Shown in pieces: positions 1,742-16,100 of a stretch of DNA of 64,000 nucleotides (its first letter is position 1; the number at the start of each line of letters is the position of its first letter). The notes under the pieces are model-generated. The model did not search any database. It worked only from the letters and a program-made list of their open reading frames with translations, and was not told the origin of the DNA. Position numbers and translations under genes: made by a program. Source of the stretch: Bacteroidota bacterium (GTDB taxonomy: Bacteria > Bacteroidota > Bacteroidia > Palsa-948); NCBI GenBank assembly GCA_016213405.1, contig JACRAM010000069.1, positions 1 through 64,000 on the forward strand, in the 5' to 3' direction.

Positions 1742-3091
1742 TCAAAACGGAATTTTGTGTTTCTCCATTTTTGTTCGCAGCGTGGAGAGCGGAAGCCCGA
1801 GCAGTTTTGCGGCATTTGATTTATTGCCTCCGCACTTTTCAAGTGTTTTGATAATAAAATAATATTCTATATCATTCAGGTGTTCATCCAGCGGTTTATC
1901 TCCGGGCAGTGTTTTTAAAATGGCTTTGTCTTCATATTTAATTTCAATGGGAATTAACGAAGCGGTAATCTTATTATCCTGCGCCAGCAAAACAATCCGC
2001 TCTACAAGGTTTTTCAGTTCGCGCACATTGCCGGGCCAGTTATATTTTTTTAATAGCTGCAACACCTCCTCTTCCATTTTAATTTCTTTTCCGCCACTGA
2101 ATTGTTTTATAAAGTGATTTAATAAATAAACTATATCTCCCTTTTTTTCGCGCAGGGGTTTCAGGTGAATGGGAAAAACATTCAGGCGGAAAAATAAATC
2201 TTCTCTGAATTTTCCTTCGCCCACTAATTTCTTTAAATCATGTTTTGTAGAAGCAATCAGCCGCACATCTATTTTGATGGTTTGCATTCCGCCCACTCTT
2301 TCAATTTCCATTTGTTCGAGCACGCGCAAAAGTTTCACCTGCAAATCCATCGGCATATCGTCAATATCGTCCAGATAAAGAGTTCCTTTATCTGCCAGTT
2401 CAAACCGTCCTATTTTAATTTTATCGGCTCCGGTAAAAGCGCCTTTTTCATGCCCGAAGAGTTCGCTTTCAAAAATCTCGCGCGATAGAATGGCACAGCT
2501 TACTTTTATCAGCCGCTCTTTGTTTCGATTACTGTTATAGTGAAGGATGTTAGCAAGCAATTCTTTTCCTGTGCCGGTTTCGCCCGAAATCAATACGGTT
2601 GTTTGCGAGTTGGAAACAATTTTTACATTTCCAAACAAGGATTTTGTTTCTGTTTCATCGCCAATAAAAGAAGAGAAATCATATTCTCCGATAAGTTGGG
2701 TGCGTAAAATTTTATTATCCGCCTTTATAGTTTTTAATTCCTGAATCCGCTGGATAATGAGCAGGGGCTGTTCTTTCGGGAATGGCTTGGTCAGAAAATC
2801 ATACGCGCCCAACTTAATTGCCTGCACGGCAGTTTCAACGGTGGCAAAGGCGGTCATCATCACTACATATATATCGGGATTAATTTCTTTTACCCGTTTC
2901 AGAAAATCCAATCCGTCCATCCTCGGCATCTTAATATCCGAAATAATAATATCCGCTTCCTGATTCTGAAGCAGGGTTAACGCGGCAACTGCATCGGCAA
3001 ATTCAAAAACTTTATAACCCGCATCGCGCAAATCATCGGCTATGGTAACCCGGAGGATCCGTTCGTCTTCTACAACAAAAACAGTTGGCAT
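1742..3091 (-). CDS. NtrC-family sigma-54-dependent response regulator
   Basis: This predicted cytoplasmic transcription activator has a receiver domain at residues 1-115 (acidic pocket VEDE at 7-10, phospho-acceptor D52, T80, K102). An AAA+ sigma-54 interaction domain follows, with Walker A GETGTGKE at 170-177, the GAFTGA loop at 217-222 and Walker B LYLDDI at 238-243. A Fis-type helix-turn-helix lies at about 420-445. The start is set at MPTVFVVEDE: an ATG eleven codons upstream would overlap the kinase gene and add a non-conserved tail. It lies 4 nt after the kinase stop, so the kinase is its probable partner. I found no convincing -24/-12 promoter in the window, so its target is unknown; the Nxr-like operon next door is the obvious candidate. 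Confidence 0.93.
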   Translation of the reverse strand: MPTVFVVEDERILRVTIADDLRDAGYKVFEFADAVAALTLLQNQEADIIISDIKMPRMDGLDFLKRVKEINPDIYVVMMTAFATVETAVQAIKLGAYDFLTKPFPKEQPLLIIQRIQELKTIKADNKILRTQLIGEYDFSSFIGDETETKSLFGNVKIVSNSQTTVLISGETGTGKELLANILHYNSNRNKERLIKVSCAILSREIFESELFGHEKGAFTGADKIKIGRFELADKGTLYLDDIDDMPMDLQVKLLRVLEQMEIERVGGMQTIKIDVRLIASTKHDLKKLVGEGKFREDLFFRLNVFPIHLKPLREKKGDIVYLLNHFIKQFSGGKEIKMEEEVLQLLKKYNWPGNVRELKNLVERIVLLAQDNKITASLIPIEIKYEDKAILKTLPGDKPLDEHLNDIEYYFIIKTLEKCGGNKSNAAKLLGLPLSTLRTKMEKHKIPF

Positions 3092-3095
3092 GGCG

Positions 3096-4604
3096 TTAAT
3101 TATTTTTATAAACCGGCAATACAATAGTAATTAATGTTCCAATACCGTATTCGCTTTCAATTTTTATTTCTCCGTTATGTTGTTTAATAATATTGTAGGA
3201 AATGGGAAGTCCTAATCCTGTTCCCTGACCGGGTTGTTTGGTGGTGAAGAAAGGATCAAATATTTTATCCAGTTTATCTTTTGGAATGCCAATACCGTTA
3301 TCCTTTATATATAGGAATACATTTTCCAAATCCGATTTACAATAAATCATTATTTCTCCATCGTTATTGTTTTCTTTTTTTCTTTTCTCGATAATAGCAT
3401 CTACACTATTAATGAGAAGATTCAACAGCACCTGTTCAAATTGATTTTGACTGGCAGAAATAAAAAATTGATTAGCGGGTATCTTATTTATTGTGGTGAT
3501 ATTACTTTTTTCCAGATGATAGGAAGCAAGAAGAAGCGCGTGTTCAAGCGGACTGTGTATATCGGTTTTAGTTAAAACAAATTCATGCTTGTAACTAAAG
3601 TGAAGAAGCCCCTGCACCACGTTCTCAATTTTATTTGCGGCTTCAGTCATCATGGTAAAATAATTAATGTTTTGGGAAACATTAACCGGGTCGGAAGAAA
3701 TTCTGCGTATGCAATTTTTGATTCCCGAAATGGGATTGCTTATTTCATGGGCGATGCCCGATGCCAGAATTCCAACCGAAGCGAGTTTCTCAGAATTGAG
3801 AAGCGATTTATGAGTTTGCTGAAGTTCAGTATGGGTTTTCTCGAGCCGTTCAATCATCTCGATAAATTTATTATAGAGAATATCAATTTCATCGTGGGAA
3901 AAAAACAATCTGCGGAGTTTGAAAGAAAAACTTTTTTCCAGAACTATTTTCTTGTCTAATATTTCCTGCAGCGAATCCAGATTAATTTCATTTGCCGTTT
4001 GGCTGATAAATTTTATGGGAGTTGTAATAACATACGAATAAAGGAAGGCAATGAGCAAACTGAGAATTAAAAAAAGCAGCAGCACAATAATTAAATAATT
4101 GTAAGTAAAATTAATGTCCTTCCGTATCTGGTTTTCGTACAACCCCACTCGGATGGTTCCGTTTTTACTGCCAAGAACCGGCACAGCAATATCGCGGATA
4201 TATTTGCTGTTTTCATTTTCATCCTGAATTAGTACAACATTTAACTCACTGTTATTTTTTAATGAGTTTGCCTTGATTAGCTCTGCGGGAATACCGTTTT
4301 CAAAAGTGTGGGCAATGATATTATTTTTATTATCTGAAATTAATATATAAGCAATGTTGGAATCTATGCCGCGTGTGCGGTCAATAATATTATTTAATTC
4401 AGCAACATCATCATACAGCATGCTGGATAAAGATTTTTCAGCAATGCTTTTAGCGATAAAAACTCCCCGCTGGTTAAGTTCTCTTTCAAGCGAACCGGAA
4501 ACCGTATGCCAGATGATAGGGATGTTTATGGCATTGAATAAAATAATAGCCAGAACAATACCGATGGTGAACTTCCAGAATAACGGGATAAAAGTTCTTT
4601 TCAT
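3096..4604 (-). CDS. Membrane sensor histidine kinase
   Basis: The predicted inner-membrane kinase has a transmembrane helix at about 11-33, a periplasmic sensing region at about 34-168 that looks like a single Cache/PAS fold, a second helix at about 169-192, and a HAMP-like linker. The HisKA motif ASGIAHEISNP has phospho-acceptor H286. The C-terminal HATPase_c domain shows N, G1 and G2 boxes (DNGIGIP, GTGLGL). Its start overlaps the stop of the upstream PhnD-like lipoprotein gene as ATGA, which implies tight translational coupling. The arrangement of binding protein, kinase and NtrC-type regulator is the same as in the AioXSR/ArxXSR oxyanion-sensing systems; the similarity of layout is observed, the ligand is inference. 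Confidence 0.93.
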   Translation of the reverse strand: MKRTFIPLFWKFTIGIVLAIILFNAINIPIIWHTVSGSLERELNQRGVFIAKSIAEKSLSSMLYDDVAELNNIIDRTRGIDSNIAYILISDNKNNIIAHTFENGIPAELIKANSLKNNSELNVVLIQDENENSKYIRDIAVPVLGSKNGTIRVGLYENQIRKDINFTYNYLIIVLLLFLILSLLIAFLYSYVITTPIKFISQTANEINLDSLQEILDKKIVLEKSFSFKLRRLFFSHDEIDILYNKFIEMIERLEKTHTELQQTHKSLLNSEKLASVGILASGIAHEISNPISGIKNCIRRISSDPVNVSQNINYFTMMTEAANKIENVVQGLLHFSYKHEFVLTKTDIHSPLEHALLLASYHLEKSNITTINKIPANQFFISASQNQFEQVLLNLLINSVDAIIEKRKKENNNDGEIMIYCKSDLENVFLYIKDNGIGIPKDKLDKIFDPFFTTKQPGQGTGLGLPISYNIIKQHNGEIKIESEYGIGTLITIVLPVYKNN

Positions 4605-5518
4605 TGTTTAACAGGAGCGCAAGAAATAATATTTTTATACAATGTATCGCTTGTCAATGCGAATTTATCAATCATAAGATCGTCAAGAATTTTTTTTCCT
4701 TCCGGGTCATTATGGATATTCAGAAATATTTCTTCTATTTTGTTTTTAAGTTCCTTGTCAAAGTTCTTTGAAACAACCACCGGAGGCATGCCCATGTATT
4801 CGGATTTTTCAATAATCCGGATATTTTTTATTTTGTCATGAGATTTTTTACTTACGTAGTCATATATTAACCCATCCACTGAAGCGCCATCCACCACATT
4901 TTTTGAAACCAACTGAATGGAAATATCATGTGCATGCGAATAAATTGTTTTAGAAAAAAAATCTCTTCCTGTCAGATGAAATAATTCATTAATCCTCCGC
5001 TCAGGATATAATTTCCCTGTATTTGATAATGGATCTGTAAAAGCAAAAGATTTTCCCTTAAGGTCCTTTAAAGAATGGATGGACGAATTTTTATTTGCAA
5101 TAATATATGCTTGATAATAGGGAAGGCCATTGATGATTGGGATGACAAGTAATTCGCAGTGTTCTTTGTTAATTATATATGCTCCGGAACAAATAAATGC
5201 AATATCAACCTGATGTTTGGCTAACATTTCATTTATTTCTGAATATGTTTTTCGTTGTTCAAATTTTACAGGTTTGTTTATTTTTTTTGAGATGTAATCA
5301 AATAATTCTATATAATAATTAAATGTTTCGCTGGGAGAAGTCATTGCGGATACAGCCACACGGAGAGGGGAAACTGTATCATTCACAGTGTTTGCATTGA
5401 CATTCTTTGTGGTTTTTGAAAAATCAATCTGAACAACATTGTCGCTGTCAAAATTGTTACATCCGATTGCAACAATTGAAAAAATAATTATTAGTATAAA
5501 AACATGAAGCGTTTTCAT
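4601..5518 (-). CDS. PhnD-like periplasmic binding lipoprotein (sensor accessory)
   Basis: A 305-residue solute-binding protein with a lipoprotein signal (lipobox VAIGC, lipidated C20), so it should be anchored to a membrane in the periplasm. The mature part follows the phosphate/phosphonate-binding PhnD layout: PLRVAVSA strand at about 51, DIAFICSGAY at about 105-114, LKDLKGKSFAFTDPLSNTG in the hinge region, and VDGASVDGLIYDYV. Two cysteines, C110 and C121, lie next to the expected ligand pocket. No ABC transporter permease or ATPase gene is nearby; instead it is fused translationally (ATGA overlap) to a histidine kinase, which argues for ligand sensing and not uptake. Ligand unknown. Confidence 0.85.
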   Translation of the reverse strand: MKTLHVFILIIIFSIVAIGCNNFDSDNVVQIDFSKTTKNVNANTVNDTVSPLRVAVSAMTSPSETFNYYIELFDYISKKINKPVKFEQRKTYSEINEMLAKHQVDIAFICSGAYIINKEHCELLVIPIINGLPYYQAYIIANKNSSIHSLKDLKGKSFAFTDPLSNTGKLYPERRINELFHLTGRDFFSKTIYSHAHDISIQLVSKNVVDGASVDGLIYDYVSKKSHDKIKNIRIIEKSEYMGMPPVVVSKNFDKELKNKIEEIFLNIHNDPEGKKILDDLMIDKFALTSDTLYKNIISCAPVKQ

Positions 5519-5631: not shown

Positions 5632-5823
5632 TTAATTCATCTTGGAAATTTCATTTGTCTCTTTTCCGATTTCGTCTTTCGCCTTTTTAAATTCACTGAT
5701 TCCTCTGCCCAATCCTTTCATGAGCTCCGGAATTTTTTTACCTCCGAAGAGAAGAAGAACAACGGCAGCAATCAGGATGATTTCGGTTGTGCCGAGCATG
5801 CCAAGTAAAATGGTGGTAATCAT
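5632..5823 (-). CDS. tatA: TatA/E-family twin-arginine translocase subunit
   Basis: A 63-residue protein with an N-terminal transmembrane helix (about 10-27), the hinge [12 protein letters not shown], and an amphipathic helix ([17 protein letters not shown]), the standard TatA layout. It is the last gene of the molybdoenzyme operon, 5 nt after the TorD-like chaperone gene. The catalytic subunit of that operon carries a twin-arginine signal, so a dedicated pore component is a sensible fit. No tatC is present in this window, so it presumably works with a TatC encoded elsewhere. Confidence 0.93.
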
Positions 5824-5828
5824 GGACT

Positions 5829-6422
5829 TTAATTTTTAACAGCGTAAAACTCCGACTCCTCATGAATAAGTTTTACTAAAAGAGAAGATAATTCCGAATA
5901 GAAGTCATTCGGATTAGTTTGGCTGAGATTTTCTGAGAATTTACCGGAGAATTCAAGCAAATGATCGTTGATGAATTTTACGTAGGCATCTTTGGTGATT
6001 TCGAGCTGTTCTTTGTTTTTTGCGATTGACATTTTTACTAACAGCAATGACAAAAATTCAAGCTGGTAGGTAATGGCATCCGGACTTTCTCCGCTTTTCG
6101 CTGTCATACCAAACGCTTTATAGAATGCAGCTACATCGGTTACCGAATTCAATTTTGAAAGGCAGGTGCTTTCTGAGACGGGAACAGTGCCTTTCAGGAA
6201 TAAACGCGAATATTCTGACAAAAGTGTTTTGTAATTTGCGTTTTTAAGAATTTCCAGTAATAATTTTTTGTATTCTATATTTAATTCCGTTCGTTTTGAT
6301 AATTCGAAAACTATTTCTCTGATTTCTGCAATATTATTTTCCTCAGGATAAGAAAAACCTTTGCTTATTACTCTGAATAAATCCGCTTTCACAAGTTTTA
6401 TATCGGTTTCGGTTGTGTACAT
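5829..6422 (-). CDS. TorD/NarJ-family molybdoenzyme chaperone
   Basis: A 197-residue all-helical cytoplasmic protein. The region [20 protein letters not shown] followed by QLEFLSLLL matches the diagnostic TorD/DmsD/NarJ segment (a Pro-Asp followed by a Leu-Glu-Phe helix). Members bind the Tat signal of a molybdoenzyme and hold it until the cofactor is inserted. The start at 6422 ([10 protein letters not shown]) is chosen because an upstream in-frame ATG would overlap the gamma-subunit gene and add 32 residues without family features. Position inside the operon identifies the alpha subunit as its client. Confidence 0.85.
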
Positions 6423-6442
6423 TTTTTTAAAATTAATTGAAT

Positions 6443-7327
6443 TTATTTTTGAATGATTAAATCTGACCACATACTGTAATGTTTTCTGCCACCAATATTT
6501 CCTGTATTTCCATTCCATACTGCAAATGCAATCTTTGTATTGTCAGGTATGGGTGCATCATTAACGTCTGTAGATTTTATAGGTCTTGCGATAATTACTT
6601 TCCATGTGTTGTTTTCCCACACACCCCAAGCCGATGCGTTTTGTGTTTCCTGTGTGGTGAGCGTGCCGAATCCTTCTGCCACACACTCTTCCGATGGATC
6701 TTTTCTGTCAAAAAGCGACATAGGATTGCCGGCATAAGAACCTGGTAAGAAATTTTTACCCATGCCTTTTGAATAGTCCAATGCTGAAATGTCGCGGGCG
6801 AATTTTCCGTTGGTGCCATCTCCTTGCCTTTCTGCCATAGGATAAATATCAGTCCAATAATTTGGATAAGCATCTTTCACATCTCTGAATCCGTTTTCAA
6901 CATCGTTTTGCCAGATTGCTTTCCAGTGAATGATATGCACTCTTCCGTTCTTATTTCCCATCATAAAAACCGGATTTTGTGCTATGTCCATTGGCAATTG
7001 AATCGCTACCTGATCGCAAAACTTGTCGGTCTCTACAATAATATCTTTTGTGCTGTCGGTCCATTCCAACAGAAAACCAATTGTTTTTCCATCGTTGATG
7101 CTTTTAACCTTTACATCTGTAATGCTTGGCTTTTGCAGTGTAGGATTAGTAATGTTTTGCGGCATAACGCTCACAGATACTGCCGTTGCTTTATTCCACT
7201 CAGCGCTTTTTATGTTTCTTTTTGAAACGGAATCTACTTTCACCGAACTGATAGTCAATCCGGTTTGGGCATTTGAAATAATTATTGTGCCGGCAAAAAT
7301 TAAAAGAAGACAATTTTTTATTTTCAT
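6443..7327 (-). CDS. nxrC-like: Haem-binding gamma subunit of type II molybdoenzyme (NxrC/EbdC-like)
   Basis: A 294-residue exported protein with a Sec signal peptide (about residues 1-20, ending ISNA-Q). It matches the ethylbenzene-dehydrogenase-type haem domain: GFLLEWTD near 84-91, QVAIQLP near 107-112, the Met ligand region PVFMMGNKNG (M122 or M123) and the C-terminal GGRKHYSMWSD (K282 or H283), which correspond to the Met and Lys/His axial ligands of haem b in EbdC-type subunits. It should take electrons to or from the Fe-S beta subunit on the outer side of the inner membrane. The chaperone gene begins 20 nt after its stop. Which residue binds haem is inference from spacing. Confidence 0.87.
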   Translation of the reverse strand: MKIKNCLLLIFAGTIIISNAQTGLTISSVKVDSVSKRNIKSAEWNKATAVSVSVMPQNITNPTLQKPSITDVKVKSINDGKTIGFLLEWTDSTKDIIVETDKFCDQVAIQLPMDIAQNPVFMMGNKNGRVHIIHWKAIWQNDVENGFRDVKDAYPNYWTDIYPMAERQGDGTNGKFARDISALDYSKGMGKNFLPGSYAGNPMSLFDRKDPSEECVAEGFGTLTTQETQNASAWGVWENNTWKVIIARPIKSTDVNDAPIPDNTKIAFAVWNGNTGNIGGRKHYSMWSDLIIQK

Positions 7328-7369: not shown

Positions 7370-7774
7370 TTAAAATTTATAACCTACACCCACACTAATT
7401 ATCCATATATTTTTTTTAGAGGCGGGGCTTGCCAAATAATACATTGGCAGAGCCAGCGCAAATTTTTTGTAGTTTAATTGAAAACCTGTGCCAAGCGTAG
7501 GACTGACCGTTAACTCATTATTGATTTCAACAAAGCGCAAAGAAGGAAACATTCCATAGGATATTCCACACTTACCATAATCCAGCCGGACAGCAGGACC
7601 ACCAAAATTCAGAAATCCTGAAAACATTTCGGTGCCACTATGTTTGTGTGTGCTGATTATTATAGATCCAACGGTTTTGTAAGAAACTTTTGGAGATTCT
7701 TTCTTAGGAGTTTCCTGTGCAAATGATAGTTGTGTTAAGAAACATAAAAGGCAATAAAAAAATATTGTTTTCAT
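7370..7774 (-). CDS. Small exported barrel-like protein inside the Nxr-like operon
   Basis: I do not recognise a family. The 134-residue product has a clear signal peptide (MKTIFFYCLLCFLTQLSFAQ), a Lys/Pro-rich linker and then alternating hydrophobic segments (SIIIS, FGGPAVRLDYG, LGTGFQLNY, FALALPMYYL) ending in ISVGVGYKF, an aromatic C-terminus typical of outer-membrane barrels. It is too short for a large barrel; perhaps four to six strands. The start at 7774 is preferred over an ATG 17 codons upstream because the latter would bury the signal peptide. It sits 13 nt after the beta-subunit gene and before the gamma gene, so it is co-transcribed with the enzyme. Confidence 0.7.
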   Translation of the reverse strand: MKTIFFYCLLCFLTQLSFAQETPKKESPKVSYKTVGSIIISTHKHSGTEMFSGFLNFGGPAVRLDYGKCGISYGMFPSLRFVEINNELTVSPTLGTGFQLNYKKFALALPMYYLASPASKKNIWIISVGVGYKF

Positions 7775-7787
7775 AGTTGTAATTTTT

Positions 7788-8918
7788 TTAAGGTGTATTA
7801 TGTCTGAATGTCCCGTGTTTTTCATCGTTATATGGTCTTACATAAACCGGCTCGGTGAATGGTACTTTCGTTAACACTTCGCCCTGTTCATTGTATCCCA
7901 CAGTATAATCTCCTTCCACTTTGTAGTGATGAATTGTTTTTGGAGAATTTCCAAAGAGCAAAAATGCACCCAGCGCTTCTTTATCGTTTTTAACATCCTT
8001 GTAAGCTTTGATTGCATGCTCTACACCGGGTCCAAACATCTGGTTCAAAAAATCTGCCGGCACATGAATCGGTGGAACATAATACACATTTGGTTCAGTA
8101 CCATGCTGGGGATAAAGAGGCAATGCAATTTTTTTGATATGAACAAGCTGATCAATCGGATTGTCCGCTTTTGCTTCTCCCTGTTTACTTAAAAAACCCT
8201 GCATTCTTATTTTGCCAATACAGGTCTGCACACATCTTGGTTGTTCTCCTTGTTCCACCAAAGGATAACAGCCGATACATTTTTCTGAAACACGGGTTAC
8301 CATGTTGAAAAAAGTTTTCTTATACGGACACGCCTTCACACATTCTTTATATCCTCTGCAACGGGATTCATCAATCAGCACAATTCCGTCTTCCGGTCTT
8401 TTGTAAATCGCTTTTCGCGGGCATGCAGCAAGACAAGCAGGATAGGTACAATGATTGCAAATGCGAGCCAGATAAAACATCCATGTATCATGAATTCCGC
8501 TGAAGAAGGCTCCTTTGTTTACATTGGCAGAACATTCATCTTCACCCATATTCGGAAAAGCATAATCACGCTCTTCGGGTCTCCAACCTTTTACATTTTC
8601 TCCAACAGCAGTTTCGAAAATCGTTTTTCCTTTAAATGTTTTAGTGGCTTTATCCCAGGACTGATCTCCCATTTCTTTGAGTGTATTCACATCCCATTTC
8701 AAAGGGTAACCTCCGTATGGCTTTGTTTCAACATTATTATAAAACATGGTTTCCTGACCTTTGCCCGATGTCCACGTAGTTTTGCAGGCAACTGTGCATG
8801 TTTGGCATGCAATACATTTATTAGTGTCGAATATGTAGGCAATTTGTTTTTTCGGACGATTGTCATCATAGGGATATTGCATCTCCCTGTTTAGTTGCCA
8901 GTTTTTTACTTGTGACAT
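7788..8918 (-). CDS. nxrB-like: Fe-S beta subunit, Nxr/Nar type
   Basis: This 376-residue electron-transfer subunit has four cysteine clusters: C35/C38/C41/C45, C154/C157/C162/C166, C187-x2-Y190-x2-C193-x3-C197 and C214/C217/C229/C233. In the third cluster an aromatic residue replaces one cysteine (CRGYKECVKACPYKK), as the Trp does in NarH, predicting a [3Fe-4S] centre. The N-terminal part through KCIACQTCTVACKTTWT and ETKPYGGYP is, from memory, much closer to NxrB of Nitrospira and anammox bacteria than to NarH. It has no signal of its own; family members are exported with the Tat-tagged alpha subunit. It is shorter than the roughly 430 residues usual for Nitrospira NxrB, mainly at the C-terminus. 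Confidence 0.93.
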   Translation of the reverse strand: MSQVKNWQLNREMQYPYDDNRPKKQIAYIFDTNKCIACQTCTVACKTTWTSGKGQETMFYNNVETKPYGGYPLKWDVNTLKEMGDQSWDKATKTFKGKTIFETAVGENVKGWRPEERDYAFPNMGEDECSANVNKGAFFSGIHDTWMFYLARICNHCTYPACLAACPRKAIYKRPEDGIVLIDESRCRGYKECVKACPYKKTFFNMVTRVSEKCIGCYPLVEQGEQPRCVQTCIGKIRMQGFLSKQGEAKADNPIDQLVHIKKIALPLYPQHGTEPNVYYVPPIHVPADFLNQMFGPGVEHAIKAYKDVKNDKEALGAFLLFGNSPKTIHHYKVEGDYTVGYNEQGEVLTKVPFTEPVYVRPYNDEKHGTFRHNTP

Positions 8919-8955: not shown

Positions 8956-11900
8956 TTATTTTGCTTTTGGCGTCTGAACCGGTGGAGCTGAACTTTTTAT
9001 TTTTGTAAAACCACCCTTCATGAATTTTTTAAAGTCTTCACTTTCATAAGTAGGGCGCACTTGTTTTTTTGCACCTTCCCATAAACCTATTCCATCAAGT
9101 CCGCCTTTTTCTGCAAAAGTTATTTTAACAAAGGATTCTCTAGGAGCACCTGTGGCTCCATGAACATCCAGCTCAAATCCTTTTCCAATCATTTGCCCGA
9201 AGTTATTTTTACGCACTAATGAATCGGTAAGCAGTGTTGGTTTCAGCCAAGCTCTTGTGCAGCTTTGGTGAGATCCTCTTCGGAACAATGATTGGTATCC
9301 GGTCTTTTCATTTTTTGCTTGTCCGGTCGGATTGTTTTTTGAACCCGCAATAGAACCGTAAGTAGAACCATACGCGTTATGCCACATTCTCAGAACTCCA
9401 CGGGGAGTTCCGGGATAATATCGTGCGCGACACAATAAGCGGGAAAGTTCATAGGCGTCCGTATTTTTTTTCTGTTGCCATCCACGGAAAGGACGATCCT
9501 CAGGATCGGCATCCATCCAGACATAATCCCCGTCTTCTACACCAAGCGCTTTTCCATCGTTTGGATTAATGTCCACATATAATTCAGTAACAAATGGTTT
9601 GCGTTTATCTGCTCGGTGCATGTCGCCAAACGGACCGAACCAAACAGCAACGATATCTGTATCCACTGGTGTGGTATGCGCACCATGACGGTATTTGGGT
9701 GTGTGGAAAATAAATTTATAATCCTTATCGGCTGTAGTTAATGGGTGATTAGTTAGTTTCTCTTCGCTCCATGGTTTAACAACATTTCTTCCCTGACGGA
9801 CATCACCCGACATATTCTCTCTTGAAACACCGTAGCTCTCGGGTGATGAAGGTTTGATAGAGGGATGGGGATTCGAAACAATAACATTGGGTTCATGGAA
9901 TGTAGAATCAATCGGCTCTCTGTGTACAGGTAAATTTTCACCGGCAGCTAAGAATTCCGGTTCATCTCTGTAAAATTCCAAACGTCCGGTTTTGGTGTAC
10001 CATTGTTTGCTTTCTTCCACCTGTTCATACCCTATGAATTTGGGATACGTTCTTGACATTAACAAAGAAGGAATTCCTTGTTTGGCTTTTGCCTCAACTT
10101 CCAATACGTTGTACCCTTTTGTTGCAGGACTTGCATCAAATACCCTTTGTAAATACACTTCAGGTTTCCCTTCGTTTGAAAATTTAAAATAATCATTGAA
10201 ACGATTGTCGCCTGTAAGGTTAGCCATTGCTTTAGCAATCCCCGCAATTGCTTCCAGATCACCTTTTGTATCATAAATTCTTGGTAAGGGAGTTCTGGGA
10301 TAAATGTATAAGAATGGGTTTGTTACTGACATCGTAGCATCCGGTGATTTAAATTCTCCCCATGAATCAACAGCAAAAACAATATCGGCATATTCACAAG
10401 ATCCTGTCCACCACCAATCAAACACACCAATGAATTCTACTTTTGGATACGCATTTACAACTGCCTCGTAATGTCCTTTATTATTAGCCAGCAGTGAATT
10501 ACCATTGGAAACCATTACCGATTTTGTGGGTGTTGGCATGTGTGTGTTTCCTGTCAGCACTTTATCGCCCACTTTCAGCATGCGATCGCTGTTGTTAAAA
10601 AAGTGTGCCGATTCGTATGAAAAATATTTTTTAACCTCGGCCGGTTTTCCTTCTTCCATTTGAATATTGAAAGGATTTTCCAGAATATAAGCAGGTAACC
10701 CGCTAAAGAATGCCGCACGATAATTTCCTGCATAGCTTCCTACATTTCCGCCAACTCTACCAATGTTTTTTGTAAGAGAAGCAAGCATCAGAACTGTTCT
10801 GTCTTTTAAATCATTATTAAAAAATTGATTAGGTCCCATGCCCATTGCAAATAATGTTTTGCCGGAATGTTTTGCAATGTCTCTTGCGATTTTTTTAATT
10901 CCTTCGACAGGAGCCCATGTTAAATCAGAAACAATTTCAGGAGAATAATTTTCATTTACATACTGTTTGATCAAATCGAAAACAGTACGTACTTCCACTT
11001 CTTTTCCATCGGCTAAGGTTACTTTGTATTTCCCTTCCAATGCCGGGAAAATTCCTCTGTCGTTCATCTTTTTACCATAATCATCGCGTCCAATTGGCGT
11101 AACAGCATTTAATTTTTCATCCCATATCATAAAATCTCCCCAGTCTTTTCTGTCTTTTTCGGAAACGAATGCCCCACCTTGCTTCGCCATTGGAGTTTGT
11201 TTTTCATCCGCTTTTATCACATGGATGTAATCAACAATATCTTTATTTTGATATTCTTTAATTACCTCCGTTGGTTTTAAAAATTGATTGGTGTCCATTC
11301 TAACTAAGAATGGCATATCGGTAAATTTCTTTACGTATTCTGCATCAAATAATTTTTCATTGATGATCACATTTGTAAATCCAAGTGCTAATGCAGGAGT
11401 AACTCCGGGACGAACGATCAATACATTGTCTGCTTTATTTGCGGTGGCGCTGTATTCACACGCAATCACGGTAACTTTTGCACCTTTCATTCTTGCTTCA
11501 GTTAGCCAATGCGCATCCGGCATTTTTGTTGTGATCCAGTTCATTCCCCAAACAATAATATTGTCGGAATGCTCCACACAAACTAAATCGTAGTCTACTG
11601 TCTGTTGTCCGGTAACCATGGGGTGACCCGGAGGCAAATCAGTATGCCAGGCATAACTATCCCAGGCCCTTGCACCTTTTGCTTCATCTGCGCTGCAATT
11701 ATTTATTTTCGCATCAAGCAATGCCAGTGAATTCGCAAAACGATTCATCCCGAAAATCCGTGTAACACCCAAAGCAGCCATTCCACCTCTGTGCTTCAGT
11801 ACCTGAACCCCCTTTCCATGAGTTGCTTCAACCATTTCTTTTGCATATCCCTGCTCTTCTAAATACTTCTTTCCTTTTTCTCCATTATAAGTAGTAGCTA

Positions 11901-12477
11901 TATTTTGTAAAGCTTTTGCTGCATATTCCGATGCTTCTTCCCATGTAATTTTTATAAATGCTTCCTTGCCTCTTCCTTCAAAATATTTTTTCGGGGCCGC
12001 ACCATTACTCTCACGAGGGAAACCGTCTTTTATCCATTGCAAAAATCCTTCACGAACAACAGGAGATTTAGCTCTTCTGTCACCGTAAAATCTTCTATGC
12101 AATGCCAATCCTTTTTGGCAGCAACGTGGCTCCCACCTTGCCGATGCTACGTTGCCTTGTAGGTCTTCTGCTTTTGAAAATCCATAGCTTGGAGCAATAC
12201 GAACGATGGTATCGTTCTTAACATGTGCTTTTAGCAAACAATTATGTGTGTCATTTGGAGCACACAGAAAAGTAAATTCACTTTCATGTTTCCACATATC
12301 ACGATATGTTTTTTCCCAATCGCGGTTAGGATATGCTGCAAGCGGATTATTTATATCCATCGGATCGAAAAAAGCAAATGCCTTACTGAATCCTTCCAAG
12401 GGTAATTGGGAGAGCGCAATAGTGCCCAAACTTGAAAGAGCGGTGCTTCGTAGAAATTTTCTTCTTGATATGTCCAT
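8956..12477 (-). CDS. nxrA-like: Molybdopterin catalytic alpha subunit, Nxr/Nar type, Tat-exported
   Basis: An 1173-residue DMSO-reductase-family enzyme, type II branch. It begins with a twin-arginine signal (SRRKFLR, R5-R6) and a hydrophobic stretch, so it acts in the periplasm. The [4Fe-4S] ligand region is C72-x5-H78-x-C80 (LCAPNDTHNC) with C119/C120 in EPRCCQKG, the pattern of Nxr-type proteins. D280 in WHTDLPPGHP aligns with the Asp molybdenum ligand of NarG (YCDLPPASP). The MGD-binding regions follow, and the C-terminal cap domain includes YRHGAHTTPVDTD. Overall length matches Nitrospira-like NxrA (about 1150). Likely reaction: nitrate/nitrite interconversion, probably nitrate reduction here given the anaerobic neighbours; chlorate, selenate or another oxyanion cannot be excluded. 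Confidence 0.93.
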   Translation of the reverse strand: MDISRRKFLRSTALSSLGTIALSQLPLEGFSKAFAFFDPMDINNPLAAYPNRDWEKTYRDMWKHESEFTFLCAPNDTHNCLLKAHVKNDTIVRIAPSYGFSKAEDLQGNVASARWEPRCCQKGLALHRRFYGDRRAKSPVVREGFLQWIKDGFPRESNGAAPKKYFEGRGKEAFIKITWEEASEYAAKALQNIATTYNGEKGKKYLEEQGYAKEMVEATHGKGVQVLKHRGGMAALGVTRIFGMNRFANSLALLDAKINNCSADEAKGARAWDSYAWHTDLPPGHPMVTGQQTVDYDLVCVEHSDNIIVWGMNWITTKMPDAHWLTEARMKGAKVTVIACEYSATANKADNVLIVRPGVTPALALGFTNVIINEKLFDAEYVKKFTDMPFLVRMDTNQFLKPTEVIKEYQNKDIVDYIHVIKADEKQTPMAKQGGAFVSEKDRKDWGDFMIWDEKLNAVTPIGRDDYGKKMNDRGIFPALEGKYKVTLADGKEVEVRTVFDLIKQYVNENYSPEIVSDLTWAPVEGIKKIARDIAKHSGKTLFAMGMGPNQFFNNDLKDRTVLMLASLTKNIGRVGGNVGSYAGNYRAAFFSGLPAYILENPFNIQMEEGKPAEVKKYFSYESAHFFNNSDRMLKVGDKVLTGNTHMPTPTKSVMVSNGNSLLANNKGHYEAVVNAYPKVEFIGVFDWWWTGSCEYADIVFAVDSWGEFKSPDATMSVTNPFLYIYPRTPLPRIYDTKGDLEAIAGIAKAMANLTGDNRFNDYFKFSNEGKPEVYLQRVFDASPATKGYNVLEVEAKAKQGIPSLLMSRTYPKFIGYEQVEESKQWYTKTGRLEFYRDEPEFLAAGENLPVHREPIDSTFHEPNVIVSNPHPSIKPSSPESYGVSRENMSGDVRQGRNVVKPWSEEKLTNHPLTTADKDYKFIFHTPKYRHGAHTTPVDTDIVAVWFGPFGDMHRADKRKPFVTELYVDINPNDGKALGVEDGDYVWMDADPEDRPFRGWQQKKNTDAYELSRLLCRARYYPGTPRGVLRMWHNAYGSTYGSIAGSKNNPTGQAKNEKTGYQSLFRRGSHQSCTRAWLKPTLLTDSLVRKNNFGQMIGKGFELDVHGATGAPRESFVKITFAEKGGLDGIGLWEGAKKQVRPTYESEDFKKFMKGGFTKIKSSAPPVQTPKAK

Positions 12478-12490
12478 AATTATTGTGGAT

Positions 12491-12877
12491 TTACTTTACT
12501 GATTTTGTACTTGCAGTTGATGTGCCTGCAGAGCTTTCTTTTTTAATGAAAGCAAGAATGGATTTAATATCAGCATCTGAAAGCTGAGTAAAATCCGGCA
12601 TTGGAATATTGTTGTACTCTTTAAATAATGCAACGGCCGTGGCATCTCCGGATTTGACAAGTGTTTGCGAGGATTTTATCCATTTTATTAAACGAGGTTC
12701 AGGATATTTTGCATGAACACCTTTCAGGTCAGGACCTACTATTCGTCCCTTTCCAACGGTGTGGCAAGCCGTGCAGTTAGCAGCGAATAATGTCTGCCCT
12801 GTGGCAGCAGAGGGTGCCTGTGAAAATAATTTTAAAGAACAGACGGAAAGGAGCGCGATGATAAATGTTGATTTCAT
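12491..12877 (-). CDS. Periplasmic c-type cytochrome of the Nxr-like operon
   Basis: A 128-residue monohaem class I cytochrome c: signal peptide to about residue 20, haem motif CTACH (C35, C38, H39) and probable Met ligand M93 in NNIPMPDF. A Ser/Thr/Ala-rich tail follows. It is the first gene of the operon, 13 nt ahead of the alpha-subunit gene, and is the natural soluble electron carrier between the haem gamma subunit and the respiratory chain. The size and the GxxLFxxxCxxCHxxGxGxxxGPxL pattern are typical of small Bacteroidota cytochromes c. Confidence 0.93.
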   Translation of the reverse strand: MKSTFIIALLSVCSLKLFSQAPSAATGQTLFAANCTACHTVGKGRIVGPDLKGVHAKYPEPRLIKWIKSSQTLVKSGDATAVALFKEYNNIPMPDFTQLSDADIKSILAFIKKESSAGTSTASTKSVK

Positions 12878-13166: not shown

Positions 13167-16100
13167 ATGAAATCCACAATGAAAATCATGGATGGCAACG
13201 AGGCGGCCGCTTACGTTGCTTACAGAACCAGTGAAGTTTGTGCTATCTATCCTATCACTCCTTCTTCAACTATGGGAGAATTTTGCGATGAATGGTCGGC
13301 TGCGGGAAAGAAAAATATTTTTGGTGAAGTTCCGCGAGTGATGGAAATGCAAAGTGAGGCGGGTGCTGCGGGCGCTATTCACGGAGTTTTGCAAGGAGGC
13401 GCGCTTGCCTCCACGTTCACTTGTTCGCAAGGTTTGTTGCTGATGATTCCGAACATGTACAAAATTGCCGGTGAGTTAACGCCTACCGTTTTTCATATTG
13501 CTGCACGAACACTTGCTACACATGCCCTTTCCATTTTTGGTGATCATTCCGATGTGATGTCTGTTCGCCAGACAGGATGGGGAATGTTATTTGGTCGCAA
13601 TGCGCAGGAAGCGATGGATATGGCGATGATTGCGCAGGCAGCTACACTTCGTTCCAAAGTTCCGTTCCTGAATATATTCGATGGATTCCGCACTTCGCAT
13701 GAGCTTATGAAAGTGGATGTGATCACGGATGATATTATTTTAAAAATGATTGACGAAGGCGATCTTCTCATGCATCGCAGCCGTGCCATGTCTACAGAAA
13801 AACCTTCAATCCGTGGCACTGCGCAAAATCCGGATGTGTTCTTTCAGGGAAGAGAAGCATCCAATAAATATTATTTAAATGTTCCCATCGCTGTGAATGA
13901 CGCGATGAAACGTTTTGCTGAACTAACAGGAAGATCATATAAACTTTATGAATACGTTGGGCATGCAAATCCTGACCGCATCATTGTGATTATGGGTTCG
14001 GGTTCAAATACCGTTCACGAAATGGTGGATCATTTGAACGCGAATGGAGAAAAAGTCGGATACGTTTATGTGCGTTTGTTCCGCCCGCTGGATGTGAAAG
14101 CATTTGTAAATGCAATTCCAAAATCAGTAAAGAAGATTGCGGTTCTTGATCGCTGCAAAGAGCCCGGAAGCATTGGAGAGCCGCTTTATCTGGATGTAGT
14201 TTCTGCAATTGCTGAAAGCCTTGCCTCACCCCAGCCCTCTCCAAAGGAGAGGGAGGAAACCCAAGGAGAAAGAAGGCAGATGCCTCTTATCATTGGCGGT
14301 CGTTACGGTTTGGCATCGAAAGAATTTACTCCTGCAATGGTAAAAGCTGCGTTTGATGAATTGAATGCAGCTGTTCCTAAAAAACATTTCACTGTTGGTA
14401 TCGAAGATGATATCACACACCTGAGTTTAGAATATGATCCGGCATTCTCATTGGAGAAACAACATTTATTTCGAGGATTGTTTTATGGTTTAGGTGCCGA
14501 TGGAACCGTAAGCGCAAACAAGAACTCAATAAAAATTATTGGAGACACAACCGATAATCATGTTCAGGGATATTTTGTTTACGATTCAAAAAAATCAGGT
14601 TCGCTCACTGTTTCGCATTTGCGTTTCGGAAAAAATCCGATACGTTCGACTTATTTAGTTGGTTCCGCAAATTTCATCGCCTGCCATCAGTTTAATTTCA
14701 TCAGCAAATATGATATCCTGAAAACTGCGGAAGAAGGCGCAACATTTTTATTGAATACGCCTTTTGACAAGGAAGATGTGTGGAATAAACTTCCGAAACA
14801 TATTCAGGAGGAAATTATTGGTAAGAAAATTAAATTTTATGTAGTGGATGCGTCTAAGGTTGCGCGCGAAGCGGGAATGGGTTCAAGAGTGAATACTATT
14901 TTGCAAACCTGTTTCTTTGCCATAGCAGGAATTTTGCCGAAAGAAGATGCAATAATGCGTATCAAAGAAGCAATCCAGAGATCGTATTCGGGAAAAGGTG
15001 AAAAAGTAATACTGAAAAATTTTGATGCCGTTGATAAAGCAATTGCCAATCTTCACCAGATAGACTATTCAAAATTTAAAACCGGAAATATTGGCGGAGA
15101 AAATATAGTGTCAGATTCCGCGCCTGATTTTGTTAAAAATGTTTTGGCGAAGATTATGATGTTTGAAGGGGATGAATTGCCGGTGAGCGCATTCCCTATT
15201 GACGGAACCTATCCTGTTGCAACTACCAAATGGGAAAAAAGAAATATAGCCGATTCGGTTCCTCAATGGGATGCCGAATTGTGTTCTCAGTGCGGAAAAT
15301 GTTTTTTGATTTGTCCTCACGCAGCAATACGCTGCAAAGTGTATGATAAAACTAAATTGTCAGATGCCCCAAAAGATTTCAAACATACTACTCCGATAGG
15401 AAAAGAATTTTTAAAAGAGACGGAAGCATATACATTGCAGGTTGCTGTAGAAGATTGCACAGGATGTAATTTATGTGTAGAATATTGTCCTGTAGAAAGC
15501 AAAGCTCAACCCGGGCACAAAGCCATCAACATGGTTTCGCAGATTCCAATTAAGGAAACTGAAATCAAGAACTGGAATTTCTTTTTATCACTTCCTGAAA
15601 TTGACCGTTCGCGTGTAAATAAAAATACGGTGAAAGGAACGCAATTGCTGCAGCCATTATTTGAATTCTCAGGCGCTTGTTCCGGCTGCGGAGAAACTCC
15701 CTATGTAAAATTGCTTTCGCAATTGTATGGCGATAAAATGATAGTTGCCAACGCTACAGGATGTTCTTCCATTTACGGAGGAAATCTGCCAAGCACTCCC
15801 TGGTCAACCAACAACGAAGGTTGCGGACCGGTTTGGGCAAATTCCCTGTTTGAAGACAATGCGGAATTCGGACTCGGAATAAAAATGGCGTACGATAAAA
15901 AAGCCGATATGGCAAGAACAATTCTGAACAGCATTCGTGATATTGTTGGAGAAAGTTTTGTGGATGAAATTCTAAATGCAGATCAAAGTACCGAAGATGG
16001 AATTCGTAAGCAGCGCGAAAGAATAAAATCGTTGAGAGCATTGATTTCTTCAAGCAATGATTTTGCAATGAAACAGCTTACTTACCTTGCTGATCATCTT

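Follow-up and report, generated by a model that had tools for sequence, protein, structure and literature searches.

The 64,000-nucleotide stretch of Bacteroidota DNA analysed here (the window) encodes, inside an operon for an NXR-type enzyme, a protein predicted to form a very small eight-stranded outer-membrane barrel, which probably passes small oxyanions, in this case nitrate and nitrite. The open reading frame at positions 7370–7774 of the minus strand is a real gene with a product of 134 amino acids. It is more than a chance reading frame: 54 distinct homologues could be aligned, with G36, G59, P60, P77, L94 and W124 present in 54/54. The gene starts 13 bp past the nxrB stop and ends 42 bp ahead of the start of the gamma gene, on a single strand throughout; an alternative in-frame ATG at 7825 would give a product of 151 amino acids overlapping nxrB. 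The same-strand operon order is cytochrome c, NxrA-like alpha, beta, barrel gene, EB_dh gamma, NarJ-type chaperone and TatA, and the features of the locus are as follows.

12491–12877, minus strand: cytochrome c (PF00034, 4.7e-13)
8956–12477, minus strand: nxrA-like alpha subunit with a twin-arginine start (PF00384; 7b04 NXR-A, E 8.6e-254)
7788–8918, minus strand: nxrB-like beta subunit, 4Fe-4S, giving the context of the barrel gene
7370–7774, minus strand: gene for the predicted small outer-membrane barrel, 134 amino acids, without a named family; 54 distinct family sequences
7718–7774, minus strand: signal-like peptide, residues 1–19, followed by Q20 (from the sequence; predicted helix 2–18)
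7373–7690, minus strand: predicted barrel, residues 29–134 (AlphaFold2 model; best matches OmpA, NspA, OprF, OmpX, Ail and PagP)
7535–7537, minus strand: codon of Arg80, probably inward-facing; R or K in 53/54 members
7376–7378, minus strand: codon of Lys133, probably inward-facing; K or R in 19/19 nitrogen-linked and 0/12 sulfate-linked members
6443–7327, minus strand: gamma subunit, EB_dh haem b type (PF09459, 3.4e-27)
5829–6518, minus strand: NarJ-type chaperone (PF02613, 1.1e-10)
5632–5823, minus strand: TatA (PF02416, 4.2e-16)

Anammox NXR-A (7b04) is the best solved match of the alpha subunit, and a Tat motif can be read from its sequence; because alpha starts with this twin-arginine motif, the NXR-type enzyme encoded in the window is probably periplasmic. 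The 134-residue protein begins with a hydrophobic signal-like segment, a feature found by a simple threshold in 53/54 family members, and its C-terminus reads GVGYKF. Searches of Pfam, NCBIfam and PHROG gave zero family matches for it, and four members of the barrel family matched no Pfam family up to E 1. The CxxCH motif is absent from its sequence, which rules out a c-type haem protein. The description in the initial annotation of an exported, barrel-like protein of 134 residues inside an NXR-like operon was thus borne out by the reading frame, the signal-like segment, the eight predicted strands and the matches to small barrels.

Elsewhere in the window, a PhnD-like binding protein (PF12974, 5e-55), a histidine kinase and a response regulator, the latter two identified by eye, follow directly after tatA on the minus strand (1742–5518) and may together sense oxyanions and regulate the operon. 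Positions 1370–1539 hold a tandem array of 21/42-bp units, whose minus-strand reading gives NRTSESR-type repeats. A short in-frame insert with a palindromic core (14226–14276) lies within a gene named by eye as pyruvate:ferredoxin oxidoreductase-like, with no second copy of the insert within the window.

Searching 395 Bacteroidia genomes for NxrB, we found 13 that match at E ≤ 1e-80. In the organism's own genus, only one of seven genomes has the NXR-type operon and another (G002) has NarH instead, a pattern that suggests acquisition or loss of the operon. The closest operon (genome G072, also locus L030), with an NxrB 91% identical, has a barrel homologue (E 8.7e-13) immediately ahead of the gene for cytochrome c. 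Two further Bacteroidota NXR operons (L041 and L042) carry the barrel gene downstream, among cofactor genes, the flanking genes being named moaA and moeA by eye. Placement between beta and gamma is peculiar to the window genome among the NXR operons seen; the contig scan for such loci retained 80 of 281 confirmed. An operon with 74% identity in NxrB from a metagenome-assembled genome labelled Bradyrhizobiaceae (L037) groups with the Bacteroidota operons, pointing to transfer or mis-binning, and a Turneriella metagenome-assembled genome (L099) has two adjacent, divergently oriented NXR-like gene sets.

Using a four-row profile, and without reference to neighbouring genes, we found the barrel in at least 15 of the same 395 genomes at E ≤ 1e-4; a 14-row profile again returned at least 15, 13 of them with E < 1e-20. 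These counts are lower bounds, as the class searches scored a limited number of each genome's candidates (in one search, 10 of up to 175). In family-level samples the barrel was present in 13/131, 27/120, 2/38 and 2/36 genomes. No plasmid-borne relatives were found for two queries. Two candidates were rejected as relatives: a match in the organism's own genome (C95, E 0.08) that is confined to roughly the first 60 residues, including the signal peptide, and a match in G001 (E 0.002; reading frame L003) that is likewise limited to about the first 60 residues and lies in a frame that reads as another protein.

We used AlphaFold2 to generate a model of the window protein together with three relatives (pLDDT 78.9, pTM 0.63). 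Eight strands are predicted, at residues 29–34, 37–44, 51–57, 60–66, 69–84, 87–102, 105–114 and 123–133. The barrel-like character claimed in the initial annotation was reproduced less fully in a poorer model led by the L041 protein (pLDDT 68.4), which has seven strands and again finds small outer-membrane barrels as its best matches. Foldseek placed OprF as the top solved match (E 1.7e-3), with Ail, OmpA and OmpX below it, interspersed with unrelated barrels. The first 14 rows from VIA-align are all outer-membrane or designed transmembrane barrels. OmpA leads (Z 6.5, rmsd 4.0 over 102), with further matches to NspA (Z 5.9), OprF (5.8), PagP (5.4), OmpX (5.4, rmsd 3.9 over 91), Ail (5.4, 3.6 over 86), a designed barrel (5.3) and OmpW (5.1, 4.4 over 102); all are weak or middling, Z ≤ 6.5 being in a range that VIA-align itself calls common. 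A viral structure library also gave weak matches to outer-membrane barrels. By sequence, OmpX was the only weak phmmer match (E 0.14), the four-member profile gave no match up to E 10, and no significant sequence or profile match linked the protein to the OmpX/Ail family. Its outer-membrane location and eight strands are given here as predictions.

The predicted strands show strong alternation between two faces across the family, with a strand-column score of 2.96 compared with 1.36 ± 0.31 for shuffled columns and 0/5000 shuffles as high. The inward/outward split is derived from this alternation and not from coordinates. Among 1402 inner-face cells from 54 members, 185 are K/R, 6 are D/E and 525 are G/A/S, while turns and strand ends hold 328 K/R and 223 D/E in 2241 cells; the basic excess is therefore located in the lumen. 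The outer face is hydrophobic in 1289/1563 cells (82%) and charged or amide in 19/1563; because the hydrophobic face was the one assigned outward, this figure is in part built in, which is not true of the charge bias. The window protein's own inner face has a net charge of +2. An anion path would call for just such a lumen, rich in glycine, basic and almost without acidic residues, and the barrel may be open. Sulfate-linked members retain Arg80 though they lack Lys133, so the lumen does not cleanly separate substrates. These members form a single clade on the barrel tree, so position 133 is at most a candidate specificity switch.

We then scored neighbouring marker genes by phmmer at 52 barrel loci whose discovery had not relied on gene neighbours. 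The class sample, excluding the organism's own genome, supplied 12 of them, and the family-level samples of 36, 131 and 120 genomes supplied 1, 13 and 26. The window, L041 and L042, found via NXR, are outside this count. Nitrogen-oxyanion genes were present at 16 loci, sulfate-assimilation genes at 12 and neither at 24, several of the last being on short contigs (4–9 kb) and all being scored on the stretch obtained. Of 40 random 16.5-kb windows from barrel-bearing genomes, none had nitrogen genes and one had sulfate genes. By Fisher's test, p is 3e-5 for nitrogen and 2e-8 when sulfate is counted as well; both values are optimistic in that the loci are related to one another. The search for homologues and their gene neighbours proposed in the initial annotation yielded a family of 54 members, part of it linked to nitrogen or sulfate metabolism. 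Against the annotation's own refuting condition, a majority of homologues away from molybdoenzyme operons, its proposal does not survive in its original wording, as only 8/52 loci have a molybdoenzyme gene in the stretch obtained. What the linked loci share is an oxyanion substrate, not a molybdoenzyme or a protein complex.

The nitrogen loci comprise the NXR operon of L030, NarGHI with NarK (L129 and L132), NirK/NorB/NorQ (L124), a NIT-domain chemoreceptor (L125) and NirBD in 11, several with NarK/NasA or NirC. Profiles support these names for NIT (6.6e-47), NarI (6e-60), NIR_SIR (4.2e-24) and NirK (3e-103, above the cut-off), while the NarK-type MFS profiles (8e-89 and 4e-53) are both under the curated cut-off. 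The 12 sulfate loci are operons with siroheme/TauE, CysH and CysD, CysD being confirmed by profile. In the sulfate operons of L143, L203–L209 and L224–L227, a Lys133-lacking barrel is next to a siroheme synthase–TauE fusion, several of them with a TonB-dependent receptor. At L131, L215, L218 and L220, which belong to the 24 loci with neither kind of gene and occupy three places on the barrel tree, the barrel adjoins a Na+/H+ exchanger.

At the level of whole genomes, NirB is present in 33/85 genomes of the family of G343 and in 10/10 of its barrel genomes (p 3e-5), including G458, though its barrel is outside the nir locus; no barrel was found in 23/33 NirB genomes. Co-occurrence with NxrB/NarH in the class sample (4/12 barrel genomes versus 50/382, own genome excluded, p 0.067) is only suggestive, and of 44/395 genomes with NarH the barrel was found in only 2.

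Several NXR operons encode a porin of ~430 amino acids, Alginate_exp by Pfam. Flanks were usable in 14 Bacteroidota NXR operons, which divide into 4 with the barrel, 7 with the porin, 0 with both and 3 with neither, so that the porin is present in 0/4 operons with the barrel versus 7/10 without (p 0.035). This p is weak, rising to ~0.05–0.07 by our arithmetic without L043 or with L033 re-scored: L043 ends ~650 bp after nxrB, leaving a barrel further downstream possible, and the L033 porin was called by eye with no Pfam match. In addition, L042 has only 2.2 kb upstream and the porin of L031 lies on the other strand. The count excludes L032, L050, L051, L052 and L039 (contigs too short), L037 (Bradyrhizobiaceae label, porin present), the distant L015/L016 and loci from other phyla. 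At nir loci, the porin was found in 0/11 with the barrel, 15/24 without it and 0/40 random windows (p 4e-4), using full loci and with a Pfam check on four porins; 9/24 barrel-less nir loci have neither. In the arrangement NirB-NirD-X-NarK-NasA, X is the barrel in L133, L190 and L192 and the porin in 7 loci, in some of which a regulator on the opposite strand intervenes.

On the NirB tree, which omits L322 (NirB split in two), barrel and porin loci are neighbouring sister groups, so one event may account for the swap at nir loci. The NxrA tree, with 20 rows, requires a minimum of three changes in barrel state, and the barrel tree, with 54 rows and the duplicate L202 omitted, forces three changes of the NXR label. 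On these trees the link to NXR has thus changed three times or more, and the barrel/porin swap overall is not a single historical event; the individual tests are modest.

The predicted strand number, size class and export of the window family are like those of other small barrels (the OmpA domain, NspA, OmpX, Ail and the OprF N-domain), from which it differs in having no significant sequence match, a basic and nearly acid-free inner face family-wide, and genes beside oxyanion metabolism. The Alginate_exp-type porins (PF13372) hold the barrel's place in nas and NXR operons but are ~420–540 residues compared with 134, show no detected sequence relation and never share a locus with it (0/11, 0/4); the window protein gave no match to PF13372. 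OmpW, the structural match at Z 5.1, is eight-stranded, and the Caulobacter crescentus protein is described as a small, cation-selective ion channel of ~120 pS (PMC4659666, excerpt). In contrast, the window protein has no Pfam match and the inner face of its family is basic. In Escherichia coli, nitrate represses ompW via NarL (PMC4886647, excerpt), so nitrate control of a small barrel has precedent.

Natural eight-stranded barrels are usually narrow and often closed. A closed barrel of the OmpX/Ail kind, with a stress, surface or envelope-stability role and co-regulated with anaerobic or nitrogen metabolism without being a channel, would fit the presence of OmpX and Ail among the structural matches, the lone weak sequence match to OmpX and the 24/52 loci with no nitrogen or sulfur gene. 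We regard it as unlikely, though the strongest of the alternatives, as it does not account for the 185:6 ratio of basic to acidic residues on the inner face or for a porin in the same operon slots, and the eight-stranded OmpW conducts ions (PMC4659666, excerpt). A soluble, periplasmic, lipocalin-like oxyanion-binding protein could use a conserved basic interior as a ligand pocket, and lipocalins and avidins do appear as lower-placed entries in the structural lists; with membrane barrels ranked first and an outer face so hydrophobic and so poor in charged or amide residues, this is very improbable.

The initial annotation had offered two roles, a small pore for nitrate/nitrite or an anchor for the periplasmic complex. 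The gene's position between beta and gamma would suit a protein that anchors the NXR-type complex or adds a further subunit to it. The initial statement that structural components are absent from known Nxr operons is not right: the nxr cluster of Kuenenia stuttgartiensis includes a non-catalytic, tubule-forming subunit, NXR-T (PMC8387239, excerpt). NXR-T, too, is small and encoded as an extra in an nxr cluster, but it carries a c-type haem, whereas the window protein is without CxxCH. The position of the barrel gene also varies among NXR operons, 10/14 of the Bacteroidota operons examined are without it, and its relatives sit with NarGHI and with NirBD, NasA and CysDH, which are cytoplasmic enzymes. 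With the majority of linked enzymes either cytoplasmic or not related to NXR, there is no common complex to anchor, and we give the anchor hardly any credence. The pore, in contrast, is favoured by the unrelated nitrate/nitrite systems alongside the barrel and by its replacement with a porin.

As a pore, the barrel of ~106 residues would have a lumen lined by glycine, small polar residues and lysine/arginine, with acidic residues nearly absent, through which nitrate and nitrite may cross the outer membrane; an open lumen, anion conduction and the substrate are all inferred. In the window, it would bring substrate to, and drain product from, the Tat-exported NXR-type enzyme; since that enzyme is presumably periplasmic, the outer membrane is its only barrier and no transporter beyond such a channel would be needed. 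Relatives would serve NarGHI/NarK and NirBD/NarK/NasA likewise, and those in which a lumen residue differs would probably serve the assimilation of sulfate.

Inner-membrane nitrate transport by NarK and NirC is well studied, and outer-membrane crossing is usually ascribed to general porins. In the literature searched, with most subscription journals and preprints outside its scope, we found no paper on nitrate, nitrite or sulfate porins and nothing on the barrel family. The fold class is thus known, the family is undescribed in the libraries searched, and the function is proposed here. More tentatively, with some doubt as to the whole, the family may represent Bacteroidota-wide dedicated oxyanion channels that rank with the smallest pores in nature. 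NXR operons would have acquired them on three or more occasions, and nar, nas/nir, denitrification and sulfate operons independently of these; the barrel and Alginate_exp-type porins could stand in for each other, and residue 133 would set the nitrate-linked branch apart from the sulfate-linked one.

The barrel family accompanies nitrate and sulfate systems that are unrelated to one another, and it trades places with a porin. If the proposed function is true, ions would pass through a barrel of just ~106 residues, and outer-membrane control of inorganic nitrogen uptake would become directly testable.
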